From: Phragmitibacter flavus | GTDB taxonomy: Bacteria > Verrucomicrobiota > Verrucomicrobiia > Verrucomicrobiales > Verrucomicrobiaceae | Length of the DNA: 64,000 nt | Direction: 5' to 3' | NCBI RefSeq assembly: GCF_005780165.1 | Contig: NZ_VAUV01000002.1 | Location: 124,001-188,000, forward strand | Part shown: positions 1,262 to 25,946 of the stretch, piece after piece | Numbering within the stretch: the first letter of the stretch is position 1 | Layout: each line of letters begins with the position of its first letter | The notes under the pieces: model-generated | What the model was told of the DNA's origin: nothing | Database searches by the model: none | The model's input: the letters and a program-made list of their open reading frames with translations, nothing else | Translations under genes and position numbers: made by a program

Positions 1262-2344
1262 ATGCCTGCCAAAATTCGCTTCAGCTCCTCCATCGCCACC
1301 GGTCTCGTGCTCGCCAAAATCGGCAATCCGCAGCGAGACGAGCCATTGCTGACCTCGCGCGATGTATTCAAGGTGGATGAGGCGGACCAGGCCACCCTGA
1401 CCACCATCTTCGTCAAGCCGTTCCGCAATCTGGTGGGCCACCGGTTCAGCCATCATTCTTCGCTGGAGCAGCATGAAATGAACACGCTGGCCAAGGCGAT
1501 CTTCACTTCGGAAGACGGACTCGGACTGCTGGAAAAGGGTTGCGACATCGCCAAACGGCTTTATTCAAAGTCCAATCATCCCAACATCAAGGCGGGCGAC
1601 CTGTGCATCTCGCTCATCAAGGACATCGAGTTTGACGGCAAAATGACCAAAGGATTGTGCATTCTCAAGTCGGAGAGCGTGACGCCGTTTTTGAGCATCT
1701 CCACGCGCAATGGCGACCTTCAATTGCACACCGAGCAGGGCATCAACCCGGAAAAAATTGACAAGGGCTGCCTGATCATTGATGTGCATTCCGATCAGGG
1801 ATATTATGTGCTGACGTTTGACCGCACCAGCGGTGAGTCGCGTTTCTGGGTGCGTGATTTTCTTGGGGTCAAGGTGGTGACCGATGCGTCCTACCTGACC
1901 AAATCCTATGCCGACATGGCGGTGTCGTTTCTTGAGCAAGAAACGCCGAAGGAAGACGACAATTCACCGCCTTGGGAGACTTGTGTGGCCGCCCGTGAGG
2001 CGCTGGAGTTTTTTGAAGGGCGGGAAAGTTTTGATCTGGGTGAGTTTGAGCAACAGGTGCTGAAAAGTCCGGAAGTGGTGGCCAAATTCACCGAACACCG
2101 CAACAAGATTGAGGAAGAAAGCGGTCAGCCATTGGAGAAAAATTTTGAGATCTCCAAGAAGGATATCAGCAAGGCGAAAAAGAAGATCGGTGCCATCATG
2201 AAACTCGACAACGGCGTCGAGATTCATCTCAAATCAAATTTCCTGCTTGAGCCGAGCAATCCGACCATTGAGCGGGGATTCGATGATGAGAAGAAGATGA
2301 AATTCGTGAAGGTGTATTACCATCAGGAAACTCCGGGCTCTTAA
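1262..2344 (+). CDS. nucleoid-associated protein, YejK/NdpA family
   Basis: A 360-residue soluble protein with the features of the NdpA/YejK family (PF04245): an N-terminal part with a VKPFRNLVGHRF stretch, a central ISLIKDIEFDGKMTKGLCILKSE stretch of the type found in this family, and a charged C-terminus rich in Lys. Family members bind the bacterial nucleoid; their exact role is unclear. Length is close to the usual 330-350. The open frame extends upstream to 1064 but overlaps the divergent membrane gene, so ATG 1262 (MPAKIRFSSS) is taken. It stands alone between divergent and convergent neighbours. Confidence 0.8.
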   Translation: MPAKIRFSSSIATGLVLAKIGNPQRDEPLLTSRDVFKVDEADQATLTTIFVKPFRNLVGHRFSHHSSLEQHEMNTLAKAIFTSEDGLGLLEKGCDIAKRLYSKSNHPNIKAGDLCISLIKDIEFDGKMTKGLCILKSESVTPFLSISTRNGDLQLHTEQGINPEKIDKGCLIIDVHSDQGYYVLTFDRTSGESRFWVRDFLGVKVVTDASYLTKSYADMAVSFLEQETPKEDDNSPPWETCVAAREALEFFEGRESFDLGEFEQQVLKSPEVVAKFTEHRNKIEEESGQPLEKNFEISKKDISKAKKKIGAIMKLDNGVEIHLKSNFLLEPSNPTIERGFDDEKKMKFVKVYYHQETPGS

Positions 2345-14515: not shown

Positions 14516-15337
14516 TCAGTCGGGTCGTTGCGCCGGAGCCAATTTTTGCTGACTGCGTGACACCATGGCTTTGACCCGGTTGGGAGCATCCTCGATCAGC
14601 GAAGGAATAAGGGCGGCTTCGGGGAGATTTTTCCAGTATTTCTTGGGCATCTCGGATTGCATCGCCTGAATTTTTACCCGGGCAGGATTGAAGATGCTGC
14701 CGAAGTAGGTGAGCCATAAATCTTCCACGGCGTCGGCGTCGGGAGCTTGCGCTTTGGTGGCCGGAGGGGTGAATTGCAGTTCGGTTCCATCCCAATGCAC
14801 ACAGCGGTCGGGGGTGAGAATGGACCAGCGCATGCTGGCGAAGCGATCGCGGAAGAATGGGGCGTTGAGTTCGACGATGAGATGCTCGGGTTCGAACCAG
14901 GCGACATACCATTGGCCCTGCTCCGTTTGAACTGCCCGGAAGCGCACGAAGGCGCGCATTTTGTGGGAGTCACGGCGCACGGCCTTGTCCATTTGGATGA
15001 GGGTGTGCATGTCGTCATCGACAGAGATTTGCATGAGGTGGGATTCGCCATGGGTGTGCCGCCACAGGAGTCGGTAAAGAAGGGTCCAACGTTTGGGATC
15101 GCGATGACAGGACACCCGTTTGGCCAGCGGCAGGAAGTCGCGCGGGACGCGAATGGTGGGGTCGGGAGCGGCTGCCGATGGGGGAGTAGAGGTGGGGGAA
15201 TCGAACAGCGCGAGGGATGGCTGATGGGTGTCGAGTTCTTCCCAGTTGGCGAGGAGGGGAGGGACTTGTTCGCGCAGGGCGAGACGGGCGGCGGTTTGCC
15301 AGTCCGGGAAGGTGGGTCGAAATCTAAACGTTTGCAT
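14516..15337 (-). CDS. TIGR03915 family DNA-metabolism protein (partner of TIGR03916)
   Basis: A 273-residue soluble protein whose opening (FRPTFPDWQTAARLALREQ), HGESHLMQISVDDDMHTLIQMDKAVRRDSHKMRAFVRFR middle and Pro-rich linker match TIGR03915. This family is found beside the TIGR03916 radical SAM protein and is sometimes fused to a UdgX-like uracil-DNA glycosylase domain, which is absent here. The radical SAM gene ends 14 bases upstream, so both share the LexA-type promoter at 16596-16609. The molecular activity is unknown; a role in DNA repair is inferred from family naming and from the SOS-like box. Confidence 0.85.
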   Translation of the reverse strand: MQTFRFRPTFPDWQTAARLALREQVPPLLANWEELDTHQPSLALFDSPTSTPPSAAAPDPTIRVPRDFLPLAKRVSCHRDPKRWTLLYRLLWRHTHGESHLMQISVDDDMHTLIQMDKAVRRDSHKMRAFVRFRAVQTEQGQWYVAWFEPEHLIVELNAPFFRDRFASMRWSILTPDRCVHWDGTELQFTPPATKAQAPDADAVEDLWLTYFGSIFNPARVKIQAMQSEMPKKYWKNLPEAALIPSLIEDAPNRVKAMVSRSQQKLAPAQRPD

Positions 15338-15351
15338 TTTTCGTGCTGGAG

Positions 15352-16596
15352 TTAGCCAACGGCAAGCGGGGTGAAAACATCGGGCGCAAACAACTCCATT
15401 TGCTTCTCGGAGCGGGCCATGACTGCCGTGTGTTTTTCGATGCGATGAGGCGTGTGATCGGCGGTGATGATGAACGGCAGGACCTTTTTCATGGGCATGC
15501 GCATGCGCATCAGATCGGTCAAACGAAGGGTGTGCCAGCGCCGAATTTGCAGGATGCGATCGACGTTGCGGACGCCGAGTCCGGGAACACGCAGCAGGGT
15601 TTCGCGTGGAGCACGATTGATATCGGTGGGGAACTCGTCGCGATGATTTAATGCCCAGGCGAGCTTGGGATCGATGTCGAGTGGCAGGTTGGGCGAGTCG
15701 GGGGTGGTGAGTTCGGTGACCTTGAATCCGTAAAAACGCAGCAGCCAGTCGGCTTGATACAATCGATGTTCGCGAACCAGTGGAGGTGAGATCAGCGGCA
15801 GTTGACTCGATGCATCGGGGATGGGACTGAAGGCGGAATAATAAACGCGTTTGAGTTGGTGGTTTTGGTAGAGGGAAGAGGCTTGATCGAGGATGGCGCG
15901 GTCCGCGGTGGGTGTGGCGCCAACGATCATTTGCGTGCTTTGACCGGCGGGTGAGAACGCGGAAGCCTTGCGGTTTTCGCGCTTTTCTATCTTGGCCTGG
16001 GTGATGCGCTTGCCGATGACGGTCATGGCTCCGCGAATGCGATCAAGGTTCTTTTCCGGCGCGAGCTGGTCGAGATCGGCCGGCGTGGGGAGTTCCACGT
16101 TGATGCTTAATCGATCCGCCCAGCGGCCAGCTTCTTCGATCAATTCGGGGGCTGCTTCGGGGATGGTTTTAAGATGGATGTAACCGCGAAACTGATGATC
16201 CACGCGCAGCGTTTTTGCGACCCGCACCACTTGTTCCATGGTGTGGTTCGAACTGCGGACAATGCCGGAACTGAGGAACAGGCCTTCGATGTAGTTGCGG
16301 CGGTAGAAATCGAGGGTGAGATCGACCACTTCTTCGGGGGTGAAACGGGCGCGGCGCACGTTGCTGGAGGAACGATTGATGCAATACAGGCAGTTGTAAA
16401 TGCAGGAGTTGGTCATCAAGATTTTCAGCAGCGAAACGCAGCGTCCATCGGGCGTGTAGCTGTGGCAGATGCCCATGCCGGTGGTGCTGCCAAGACCACC
16501 CGCGCGTGAATCGCGTTTGTTGGTGCCGCTGCTGGCGCAGGAGGCATCATATTTGGCGGCATCGGCCAGAATCGAAAGCTTATCGCGAATTTGCAT
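15352..16596 (-). CDS. putative DNA modification/repair radical SAM protein (TIGR03916)
   Basis: A 414-residue radical SAM protein. The [4Fe-4S] motif CxxxCxxC is at CIYNCLYC, within the family signature TNSCIYNCLYCINR. The C-terminal part holds a helix-hairpin-helix (RAPRETLLRVPGLGVRNVDRIL) that suggests contact with DNA. The family is annotated as putative DNA modification or repair and travels with TIGR03915, which follows in the same operon. The ATG at 16596 (MQIRDKLSIL) matches the family start; a longer frame to 16635 would run through the LexA-type palindrome, so it is not used. Confidence 0.9.
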   Translation of the reverse strand: MQIRDKLSILADAAKYDASCASSGTNKRDSRAGGLGSTTGMGICHSYTPDGRCVSLLKILMTNSCIYNCLYCINRSSSNVRRARFTPEEVVDLTLDFYRRNYIEGLFLSSGIVRSSNHTMEQVVRVAKTLRVDHQFRGYIHLKTIPEAAPELIEEAGRWADRLSINVELPTPADLDQLAPEKNLDRIRGAMTVIGKRITQAKIEKRENRKASAFSPAGQSTQMIVGATPTADRAILDQASSLYQNHQLKRVYYSAFSPIPDASSQLPLISPPLVREHRLYQADWLLRFYGFKVTELTTPDSPNLPLDIDPKLAWALNHRDEFPTDINRAPRETLLRVPGLGVRNVDRILQIRRWHTLRLTDLMRMRMPMKKVLPFIITADHTPHRIEKHTAVMARSEKQMELFAPDVFTPLAVG

Positions 16597-17050
16597 GTTC
16601 AATAGAACATTAATTGAGCTTAACAAAATTGGCAACCCAATAACCGGAGATGCTGCAAATGATGAAGGTCAATCGACGAAAGCTTTGCGTGAAGGTCTGA
16701 TTGCTGCTGCTACCATGGATCGCATGTATACCGCATCCATCCCCTGGAAAGTGCTCTCATCAAAAGTCGGCGTCGGTGTGCTTACGGAGGGTTGGAATCT
16801 GGCGGGGGTTGAAGAGGACACGCAGGAAATCCGCACCTTTGTGGTGGACGTGTTTTTTGACTCGACATTTGTGTCGCCTCCAGTCGTGCAACTTGGCCTT
16901 ACTGGATTTGATATTGATGATCGCGACAGTTCACGGCTCACGCTGACGGCGGAGAACATCACGCAATCGGGTTTTCAGGTATTGGTCACCACCTGGGCGG
17001 GCACGCGTGTTTATGCGGCGGAGTTCAACTGGCTGGCGATTGGGGCTTGA
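16595..17050 (+). CDS. H-type lectin domain protein
   Basis: The C-terminal 85 residues show the H-type lectin pattern (PF09458): TFVVDVFFDSTFVSPPVV, an LGLTGFDIDD strand, the Arg and AENIT core, then GFQVLVTTWAGTRVYAAEFNWLAIG. Such domains bind sugars (GalNAc) in snail agglutinins and occur in scattered bacterial proteins. There is no signal peptide. The frame opens at ATG 16595, inside the LexA-type box; ATG 16714 (MDRMYTASIP) is a good alternative and keeps the whole lectin domain. The gene abuts the convergent methyltransferase stop to stop. Confidence 0.65.
   Translation: MFNRTLIELNKIGNPITGDAANDEGQSTKALREGLIAAATMDRMYTASIPWKVLSSKVGVGVLTEGWNLAGVEEDTQEIRTFVVDVFFDSTFVSPPVVQLGLTGFDIDDRDSSRLTLTAENITQSGFQVLVTTWAGTRVYAAEFNWLAIGA
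16596..16609. promoter_or_regulatory. LexA-type operator (perfect palindrome)
   Basis: TGTTC-AATA-GAACA is a perfect match to the TGTTC-N4-GAACA LexA motif that I recall for Verrucomicrobia. It lies immediately upstream of, and overlaps by one base, the start codon of the TIGR03916 gene. A repressor here would cover the start region of the repair operon. It also overlaps the first codons of the divergent lectin frame. Confidence 0.75.
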
Positions 17051-23418: not shown

Positions 23419-24492
23419 TCACGCCGCCAGCGCGTCGGGATTGCGCATGCCGGTTTGAATGGCGGGGAGGATTTCTTCCAGGGTGTTGGCGACGACGAAA
23501 TCGCCGGGTTGGGACATGGTTCCGAGGAGTTCGATGAGGGGGTCCCAGAAGCGCAGGCCGTTGGAGCTGGCGCGGTTGAAGATGACGACGGGTTTGCCGA
23601 GCATCAGCGGGTTTTTCTGATGTTTGAAGATCATCAGGGCAAGAAGCTCCTGCACAGTGCCGGCACCGCCGGGGAAGATGACAAAGGCGTTGGAGTTTTC
23701 GATCATGACCTCCATCCGGGTGTAGATGTCGGGACGCAGCCAGAAGCTGGAGAGTCCATCGGGCAGGCCTTCGAGTTCGATGATGTGGGGAACGTTGGAG
23801 CCGCCGGTCCAGCCGCCTGCTTCGACGGAGCCTTTGACCACGGCACCCATGATGCCGGATTTGCCGGCTCCGGAGACACAACCGATTTTGTTCTCGGCAA
23901 GAAGGCGTCCCAGAGCTTCGCCATCGGCAAGATACAAGGGATCTTCCAGGGTGGCGGAACAGAAGACGCAGGCGTTGCCGATGTAGTCGTCGGGGATCGG
24001 AGTTTCAAAGGTGCCGGCCTGACTTTCGCCGATTTTGTGTCGGCCGACGTCGGGGATGCCTTGGGATTTGACGATCTCCAGGGTTTCCAAAACGGCTTCC
24101 GGTGATTCCACGGTGAGCAGGAAGTCGCGGTAGTCTTGTTTGATGGTTCCCATCTTGCGAAGGTGGGCAAGGACGGCGAACAAGGGGTCCCAGGAAAAGT
24201 CGCCGTTGAGGATGACGGTGGGTTTGCCGCTCAGGTTGCGGTCGAGCGTCTGAAAACCCACAAAGATGGAGATCGCCTTAAACATGTCCTCCAGTGTGGC
24301 GCCTGGAGTGAACACAAAGGCGTCGGATTCGATGATTTTTCGTTCGATGTTCGACAGCGTGATGCGCTGGTCGCCGTTGGAATTGTAGATGTCCCATCCA
24401 CCTGCAAACAGGAGATAGAGGAGGCGGGCACGTGATGCGCGACCTGGGTCTTCGGCACCGAGAACAGTTCCTGACAGTCTTACTTTGGACAT
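23419..24492 (-). CDS. LOG family protein (two-domain Rossmann)
   Basis: A 357-residue protein with the LOG/TIGR00730 nucleotide-binding signature FPGGAGTVQELLALMIF in the C-terminal half, preceded by CVSGAGKSGIMGAVVKGSVEAGG. The N-terminal half contains a weaker copy of the fold (ESDAFVFTPGATLEDMFKAIS), so this is a double-length member; ordinary LOG proteins have about 190 residues. Small LOG enzymes are phosphoribohydrolases that release cytokinin-type bases from nucleotides. For the long members the function is unknown. The start at MSKVRLSGTVLG is chosen over a longer frame to 24621, which would cross the LexA-type box. Confidence 0.85.
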   Translation of the reverse strand: MSKVRLSGTVLGAEDPGRASRARLLYLLFAGGWDIYNSNGDQRITLSNIERKIIESDAFVFTPGATLEDMFKAISIFVGFQTLDRNLSGKPTVILNGDFSWDPLFAVLAHLRKMGTIKQDYRDFLLTVESPEAVLETLEIVKSQGIPDVGRHKIGESQAGTFETPIPDDYIGNACVFCSATLEDPLYLADGEALGRLLAENKIGCVSGAGKSGIMGAVVKGSVEAGGWTGGSNVPHIIELEGLPDGLSSFWLRPDIYTRMEVMIENSNAFVIFPGGAGTVQELLALMIFKHQKNPLMLGKPVVIFNRASSNGLRFWDPLIELLGTMSQPGDFVVANTLEEILPAIQTGMRNPDALAA

Positions 24493-24614
24493 AATGTTCC
24501 TTTCAGATACGCTTCCCAAGCATCGACCGTGCCGAAATGCGGAGGAGGATTGATGTAGGGGCATTGGGTGAGGCATCGAGCAAATCGAGGTGAGAAGATT
24601 CTTAAGTTGAAATG

Positions 24615-24628
24615 CGTTCAAGAGAACA
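24615..24628. promoter_or_regulatory. LexA-type operator upstream of Y-family polymerase
   Basis: CGTTC-AAGA-GAACA matches the TGTTC-N4-GAACA motif in nine of ten fixed positions and sits 11 bases before the polymerase ATG. It resembles the perfect box at 16596-16609. Damage-inducible control of the polymerase is the natural reading. Confidence 0.7.
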
Positions 24629-24638
24629 CTACTAATTA

Positions 24639-25946
24639 ATGGTGGATCACCGCATTCTGTTCATTGATTTCAACTCGTATTTTGCCTCGGTGGAGCAGCA
24701 GATGCGGCCGGAATTGCGTGGTCGGCCGGTGGCGGTGGTGCCGGTGATCACCGATTCGACCTGTGCGATTGCGGCGAGTTATGAGGCGAAGGCGTTTGGA
24801 GTGAAGACGGGGACGCGGATCGGGGATGCGAAGAAGATGTGTCCGGGGTTGGTGTGTGTGCTGGCGCAGCATGACGCTTATGTGCATTTTCACGGGAAAC
24901 TGAAGAAGGAGATCGACCGGCACATTCCCATTTTGCGGGTGGAGTCGATTGATGAGATGTCCTGCGAGCTGTATGGCCGCTTTCACGAGGAATCGGCGGC
25001 AGTGGAACTTGCCCAAGCCATCAAGGCGGGTATCGCGGAAAATGTGGGGGTGTGTTTGACGAGTTCGATTGGGATTTCGACGAACCGGTTTCTGGCGAAG
25101 GTGGCCAGTGACATGGTGAAACCCAACGGCATCACGGTGTTGCATCCGAGTCAGATGCCGGATCGCTTGAATGGGCTGAAACTGCGGGACCTGCCGGGCA
25201 TCGGACGCAACATGGAGACGCGTCTTTATGCCAAGGGGATCACGACGATCTGGCAGCTCTGGCATTGTGCGCCGAAACAGGCGGGCGGCTTGTGGGGCAG
25301 CGTTGAGGGCGAGCGTTTCTGGCATGCCTTGCACGGCAGGGAAGTGGAGCGTGCGGAGACGGTGCGTCGGATGATCACGCACAGTCATGTGCTGGGTCCG
25401 GTGGATCGTCCGTTGGCGAGGGCGGAGAATGTGGGTCGGCGTTTGTTGTTGAAGGCGGCCAGTCGCATGCGGAAGTTGAACATGAAGGCAACGCATCTGG
25501 ACATCAGCGTGCGTGTTGAGCGTGGGGAGAGATTGGAGGGGAGTGTCCGGTTCTCGCCCGTGTGTGACAGCTTTGCGTTGTTGAAGATTTTTGGGGAATT
25601 GTGGGCGAAGGTGGTGCGGGATCGGCCTGCGCATTTGAAGAAGGTTAGCCTGGCTTTGCATGGGTTGGTCCCGGTGGAGGCGGCGGAGCAGTTGAGCTTG
25701 TTTCCGGCGGAGAACGGGGTGGATGCCAGAAGTCCGCAGCAGCGGGAGTTGCGGGAGCGGTTGTCGCAGGTGTTGGATAACGTGACTCAACGGTTTGGTC
25801 GTGATGCGTTGACGTTGGGTCTGACGGAGTCCGATGGCAGCAGTTTTACCGGGACGAAGATTGCGTTTAATCGGATCCCGGAGACGTCCGATTTTGAGCA
25901 ATGGCAGGAGAAGGAGGCAAGGCGGGAGGCAACGGGTCCGCTTTGA
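24639..25946 (+). CDS. Y-family DNA polymerase (DinB/UmuC-type)
   Basis: A 435-residue translesion polymerase. The metal-binding aspartate of motif I is in FIDFNSYFASVE and the catalytic pair is in VESIDEMSCEL (SIDE). The helix-hairpin-helix of the thumb is visible in LRDLPGIGRNMETRLYAKGI, and a little-finger domain occupies about 240-360. The C-terminus is extended relative to minimal DinB. It bypasses DNA lesions or acts in mutagenesis. A LexA-type box lies just upstream, consistent with SOS control. No recA or imuA is adjacent. Confidence 0.9.
   Translation: MVDHRILFIDFNSYFASVEQQMRPELRGRPVAVVPVITDSTCAIAASYEAKAFGVKTGTRIGDAKKMCPGLVCVLAQHDAYVHFHGKLKKEIDRHIPILRVESIDEMSCELYGRFHEESAAVELAQAIKAGIAENVGVCLTSSIGISTNRFLAKVASDMVKPNGITVLHPSQMPDRLNGLKLRDLPGIGRNMETRLYAKGITTIWQLWHCAPKQAGGLWGSVEGERFWHALHGREVERAETVRRMITHSHVLGPVDRPLARAENVGRRLLLKAASRMRKLNMKATHLDISVRVERGERLEGSVRFSPVCDSFALLKIFGELWAKVVRDRPAHLKKVSLALHGLVPVEAAEQLSLFPAENGVDARSPQQRELRERLSQVLDNVTQRFGRDALTLGLTESDGSSFTGTKIAFNRIPETSDFEQWQEKEARREATGPL

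Follow-up and report, generated by a model that had tools for sequence, protein, structure and literature searches.

What is the role of the 14-nt palindrome CGTTC-AAGA-GAACA (CGTTCAAGAGAACA, positions 24615-24628, plus strand), located just upstream of a Y-family DNA polymerase gene in Phragmitibacter flavus? Throughout, the window is the whole stretch of 64,000 nucleotides of this genome that we analysed. An earlier note on it had proposed that this palindrome and a similar one at 16596 are LexA-type boxes and together form a small local SOS regulon. We conclude with high confidence that 24615-24628 functions as a LexA operator of Verrucomicrobia type, which would block the polymerase promoter as a member of a genome-wide, non-local SOS regulon. 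What can be read directly in the sequences is the box, its conservation, the other members of the regulon and a LexA whose recognition helix and cleavage residues fit; from these we infer LexA binding, repression and induction at 24615-24628 as well as the exact promoter position.

The two half-sites of 24615-24628 are separated by a 4-bp spacer and carry 9 of the 10 fixed bases of TGTTC-N4-GAACA, the Verrucomicrobia consensus. The only deviation lies in the left half-site, with C where the consensus has T; this first base deviates in two of the orthologous boxes as well, being C in L032 and A in L027. The ATG at 24639 begins 10 nt past the last base of the box, its A being the 11th base after it. 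Sequence, distance and the IMS domain match of the encoded protein thus agree with the initial description of a LexA-type box 11 bases before a Y-family polymerase.

One could suspect a chance palindrome without function, since the box is one base off the consensus and a looser threshold gives only a chance-level motif count in the window (64 sites with up to two mismatches, compared to 67.5 expected). As matches with two mismatches are no commoner than chance, only near-perfect sites are informative. YGTTC-N4-GAACR occurs only twice in the 64-kb window, at 24615-24628 and 16596-16609. Shuffled windows contained 0.28 such sites on average and at least two were reached in 4 of 100 shuffles, in line with the earlier view that two boxes within 8 kb are unlikely to be fortuitous. 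Chance was further gauged by means of control patterns and of 400 kb sampled from the genome itself. A scoring matrix derived from orthologous polymerase sites only, the window's own site being left out, gave 17.8 bits at 24615-24628 and 24.4 bits at 16596. In the same scan, 399,740 positions drawn from elsewhere in the genome all stayed below 17.8 bits, and within the window only these two sites came within 4 bits of this threshold.

Orthologous upstream regions were also compared. Among 57 genomes searched, 29 encode the polymerase at E below 1e-60, representing genera both of family f1 and of two further families in the order. A box with at least 9 of 10 bases was observed upstream of the start in 29/29 polymerase loci (28 relatives and P. 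flavus), and in 25 of them it was perfect (10/10). The flanks of the box differ among the 28 orthologous loci while the box persists. Such retention, together with the absence of any site scoring as high across about 400 kb sampled from this genome, renders a chance palindrome extremely improbable.

The box could also be thought to control mainly the divergent TIGR00730 (LOG-like) gene (23419..24492, minus strand), whose ORF could be lengthened as far as a TTG within the box. Nevertheless, its likely ATG is located 120 nt from the box and the gene is missing next to the polymerase in 28/28 relatives, in all of which the box is retained. We consider this assignment very unlikely and rejected the LOG-like gene as target, judging it to be outside the system. 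The operator belongs to the polymerase, because the box is kept at orthologues where neither the LOG-like gene nor the radical-SAM gene described below is a neighbour.

The polymerase (435 aa, 24639..25946, plus strand) matches Pfam IMS (PF00817, E 6e-35) and IMS_C. Catalytic residues D10, D105 and E106 and the steric-gate F15 are invariant in an alignment of 15 orthologues, a clamp-type motif QLSLF is found at residues 351-355, and among solved structures Dbh and Dpo4 come closest. Four Y-family proteins are encoded in the genome, including a separate DinB, UmuC and ImuB; identity of the window polymerase to this DinB is 36% over 208 aa. Against curated Pol IV models it scored at best 173.8 bits, far below the cut-off of 367. 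The label ‘dinB-like’ given previously was therefore loose: the protein does belong to the Y family, but identity as DinB itself was rejected since Pol IV cut-offs are missed and the genome has a separate DinB. As judged by its sequence, it appears to be a relative of Pol IV within the Y family.

The second predicted operator in the window (16596-16609, minus strand, TGTTCTATTGAACA) is a perfect TGTTC-N4-GAACA; the box reads TGTTCAATAGAACA. It touches the probable ATG (16597) of a gene for a radical-SAM DNA repair/modification protein (TIGR03916, 15352..16597, minus strand; the ORF is listed from a TTG at 16635). The same operon includes a putative DNA repair partner, TIGR03915/DUF4130 (14516..15337, minus strand). 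Orthologues of the radical-SAM gene mostly carry a box of 8-10 out of 10 close to the start, in many cases in contact with the start codon, while no box was seen near the start in several of them. On the plus strand, an ORF encoding an H-type lectin domain (16469-17050) spans the window's 16596-16609 box. Conservation, genome context and the matching LexA strongly support the predicted SOS control of both the polymerase and the radical-SAM gene, as the earlier note had supposed.

Its proposal of a local regulon did not hold. The exact motif TGTTC-N4-GAACA occurs 8 times in the 5.9-Mb genome compared to once for a reversed control pattern, and 185 times compared to 21 when summed over the 23 family genomes searched; the refuting condition set in the earlier note, a frequency no higher than in shuffled sequence, thus fails. 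Perfect boxes are spread over contigs C2, C8, C11, C13, C20 and C21. Besides 16596, before the radical-SAM repair gene, they are found before recA (C2:317901, ATG 49 nt away), on the same contig as the 24615 box and 169 kb from it, and before imuA, with imuB behind (C13:60883). Both recA and imuA were named by reading translations, imuA also by the adjoining imuB match. A further perfect box precedes by 20 nt the gene of a D12-class adenine DNA methyltransferase (C8:290808; L010 1501-1514), making SOS control of this methylase possible. At C8:246369 (L009 1501-1514), the box precedes by 16 nt a 41-codon integrase-like remnant ORF. The N-terminus encoded there weakly resembles SAM-like domains of phage/integron integrases (Phage_int_SAM_4, E 0.0026, below the cut-off), and the ORF is possibly the remnant of an integron-type integrase with a retained operator. 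The remaining perfect boxes stand behind dinB and before a 45-aa basic ORF (C11:229743; L013 1501-1514), for which no homologue was found in 34 relatives; 2 nt before the start codon of a 128-aa protein (C20:50368; L018 1569-1582); and 8 nt before that of a 110-aa protein (C21:71713; L019 1514-1527). The 128-aa and 110-aa proteins gave no family match over the cut-off and are candidate new SOS genes. No box was seen upstream of UmuDC. Variants ending in C/G (e.g. CGTTC-N4-GAACG) elsewhere in the genome were rejected as operators, being mostly inside ORFs or repeats.

In favour of a small local regulon, the two boxes lie within 8 kb and are the only near-perfect ones in the window. Yet perfect boxes occur on five further contigs and at recA, and the polymerase and radical-SAM genes are unlinked in relatives, where they sit on separate contigs or some 750 kb from each other (2,176,200 and 1,422,960, respectively, in relative G011, a single contig of 8,220,857 bases). 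We give a local regulon next to no credence; the 8-kb spacing of the two window boxes is incidental.

The genome encodes a LexA (C2:196638-197228, about 8.6 kb past the window end) scoring 133.8 bits against a curated cut-off of 110.95. In an alignment with LexA of 12 relatives, its recognition region, FGFASQTAAMSHLRALERKGVIRRLA, shows one K/R difference from that of G011, and the self-cleavage residues Ala-Gly, Ser and Lys are present as in G011. Could another repressor, S24-type or phage-type, read the palindrome instead of LexA or besides it? Several relatives do encode extra LexA-like proteins. In P. flavus, however, a single LexA exceeds the cut-off, and the same box stands before recA and imuA-imuB. 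In the second S24 match no HTH part was matched, and its gene immediately precedes umuC; it is therefore taken as UmuD-like. Another repressor is thus quite improbable, and LexA is the preferred reader of the box. No good box was found in the genome's own lexA promoter (L020 about 2090-2160, minus strand), which carries a degenerate version of the tandem box arrangement of G011. Since only a degenerate box is present there, lexA autoregulation may be weak in this genome.

How could LexA act at this site? Around the box we read a probable -35 hexamer TTGAAA (24607..24612, plus strand) and a probable -10 hexamer TACTAA (24630..24635, plus strand), the 17-nt spacer of which holds the operator. 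A strict promoter scan of the window did not call these hexamers, which counts against the operator reading, as do the C in the left half-site, the matrix score below that of 16596 and the degenerate box at lexA. In an alignment anchored on the box, orthologues outside genus g8 tend to have a hexamer resembling TTGATA 1-2 nt upstream, and TAttnT beginning at the second base downstream, a T being present there in 14/14. A LexA dimer on 24615-24628 would occupy the -35/-10 spacer and block transcription of the polymerase gene. Upon DNA damage, RecA filaments would provoke LexA self-cleavage and the operator would be freed; the polymerase would then be produced and could copy past lesions.

With this promoter, transcription is predicted to start near 24641-24643, and the candidate start codons, ATG 24639 and the in-frame GTG 24642 (24639..24644, plus strand), are located at the predicted transcription start. 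In most loci outside g8 the start codon is pinned by two features: it is the earliest in-frame start past the box, and usually the sole one, and the catalytic Asp follows within 7-11 codons. The distance from box to start codon is 10-15 nt in 11 loci, representing 7 genera, and mostly 26-33 nt in genera g8 and g4. The position of the start codon at the predicted transcription start in these 11 loci suggests a leaderless mRNA, a reading that draws on related species. Some Verrucomicrobiota have been reported to be SD-scarce (PMC10783764). Among 340 first-ATG gene starts taken from the window and from L091-L110, a crude choice of starts, TAnnnT occurs at -15 to -11 in 31, compared to 8-12 at control positions (about threefold). 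Since TAnnnT is enriched before start codons, a leaderless gene class is plausible in this genome.

We further searched for homologues in other phyla. While a single-protein query gave no match, an alignment query retrieved 80 named loci, of which 160 nt upstream were scanned. The alphaproteobacterial operator GTTC-N7-GTTC was present upstream in 29/80 loci (0.3 in letter shuffles), CTGT-N8-ACAG in 4/80 (0.25 in shuffles) and the Verrucomicrobia box in 5/80 (0.25 in shuffles). At least one of the 29 GTTC-N7-GTTC sites (L182, Thiobacillus) is probably due to chance. At locus L187, whose record is titled Bacillus subtilis SK6B4, both the polymerase and its operator are of alphaproteobacterial type; this assembly is probably mislabelled or contaminated.

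In the tree, Verrucomicrobiota copies fall into two distant groups. Sequences of g1, g9, g4 and g8 branch among alphaproteobacterial ones, although deep forks are weak (90/76), whereas g2, g3, g5 and g6, with f3 and f6 sequences, are found in another clade (support 100/99). Prosthecobacter and Verrucomicrobiaceae sequences group with genus g8. Because homologues of other phyla bear their own LexA operators and the Verrucomicrobiota copies are split in the tree, the simplest reading would be horizontal movement of the polymerase with repeated local gain of an operator. It has already been argued that error-prone polymerases come back under LexA regulation, by convergence, once the motif has changed (PMC7739468).

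Joined together, these observations could be read as a leaderless SOS polymerase mRNA, in two lineages, whose gene crossed phyla and repeatedly gained an operator, promoter, operator and start being rebuilt compactly. We advance this combined reading tentatively, with somewhat less than even confidence. If the leaderless part is true, translation of an error-prone polymerase would have to begin with no ribosome-binding site at hand, a feature of possible importance under stress. More generally, these results assign to the SOS response of the family Verrucomicrobiaceae a distinct Y-family polymerase of wide distribution, and provide a natural series in which SOS control of a gene persists through changes of the repressor motif or of the host phylum.

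The Verrucomicrobia LexA-binding motif TGTTC-N4-GAACA and the corresponding SOS regulon were reportedly described by Erill et al. in 2016 (Front Mol Biosci 3:33). The site at 24615-24628, one base off this consensus, would be a further operator of an already known motif, i.e. ordinary regulation with an evolutionary angle. The system examined here has in common with the Verrucomicrobia LexA system the 14-bp palindrome and its spacing, with a LexA recognition helix nearly that of G011, and the same kinds of targets, namely recA, a mutagenesis cassette and a UDG-type repair pair. The Verrucomicrobia motif study is cited in PMC8565304 and PMC7739468; the former also states that a uracil-DNA-glycosylase-based repair system has been reported to be under SOS control in Verrucomicrobia.

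With DNA polymerase IV (DinB) and archaeal Dbh/Dpo4, the window polymerase shares the Y-family fold, as judged by sequence, the catalytic D/D/E and the steric-gate aromatic residue; it differs from DinB in falling far under the curated Pol IV cut-offs. The closest parallel in another phylum is the alphaproteobacterial arrangement, in which a related polymerase lineage (up to 52% identity) is also located behind a local LexA operator. There, in contrast to the palindrome of P. flavus, the GTTC-N7-GTTC operator is a direct repeat.
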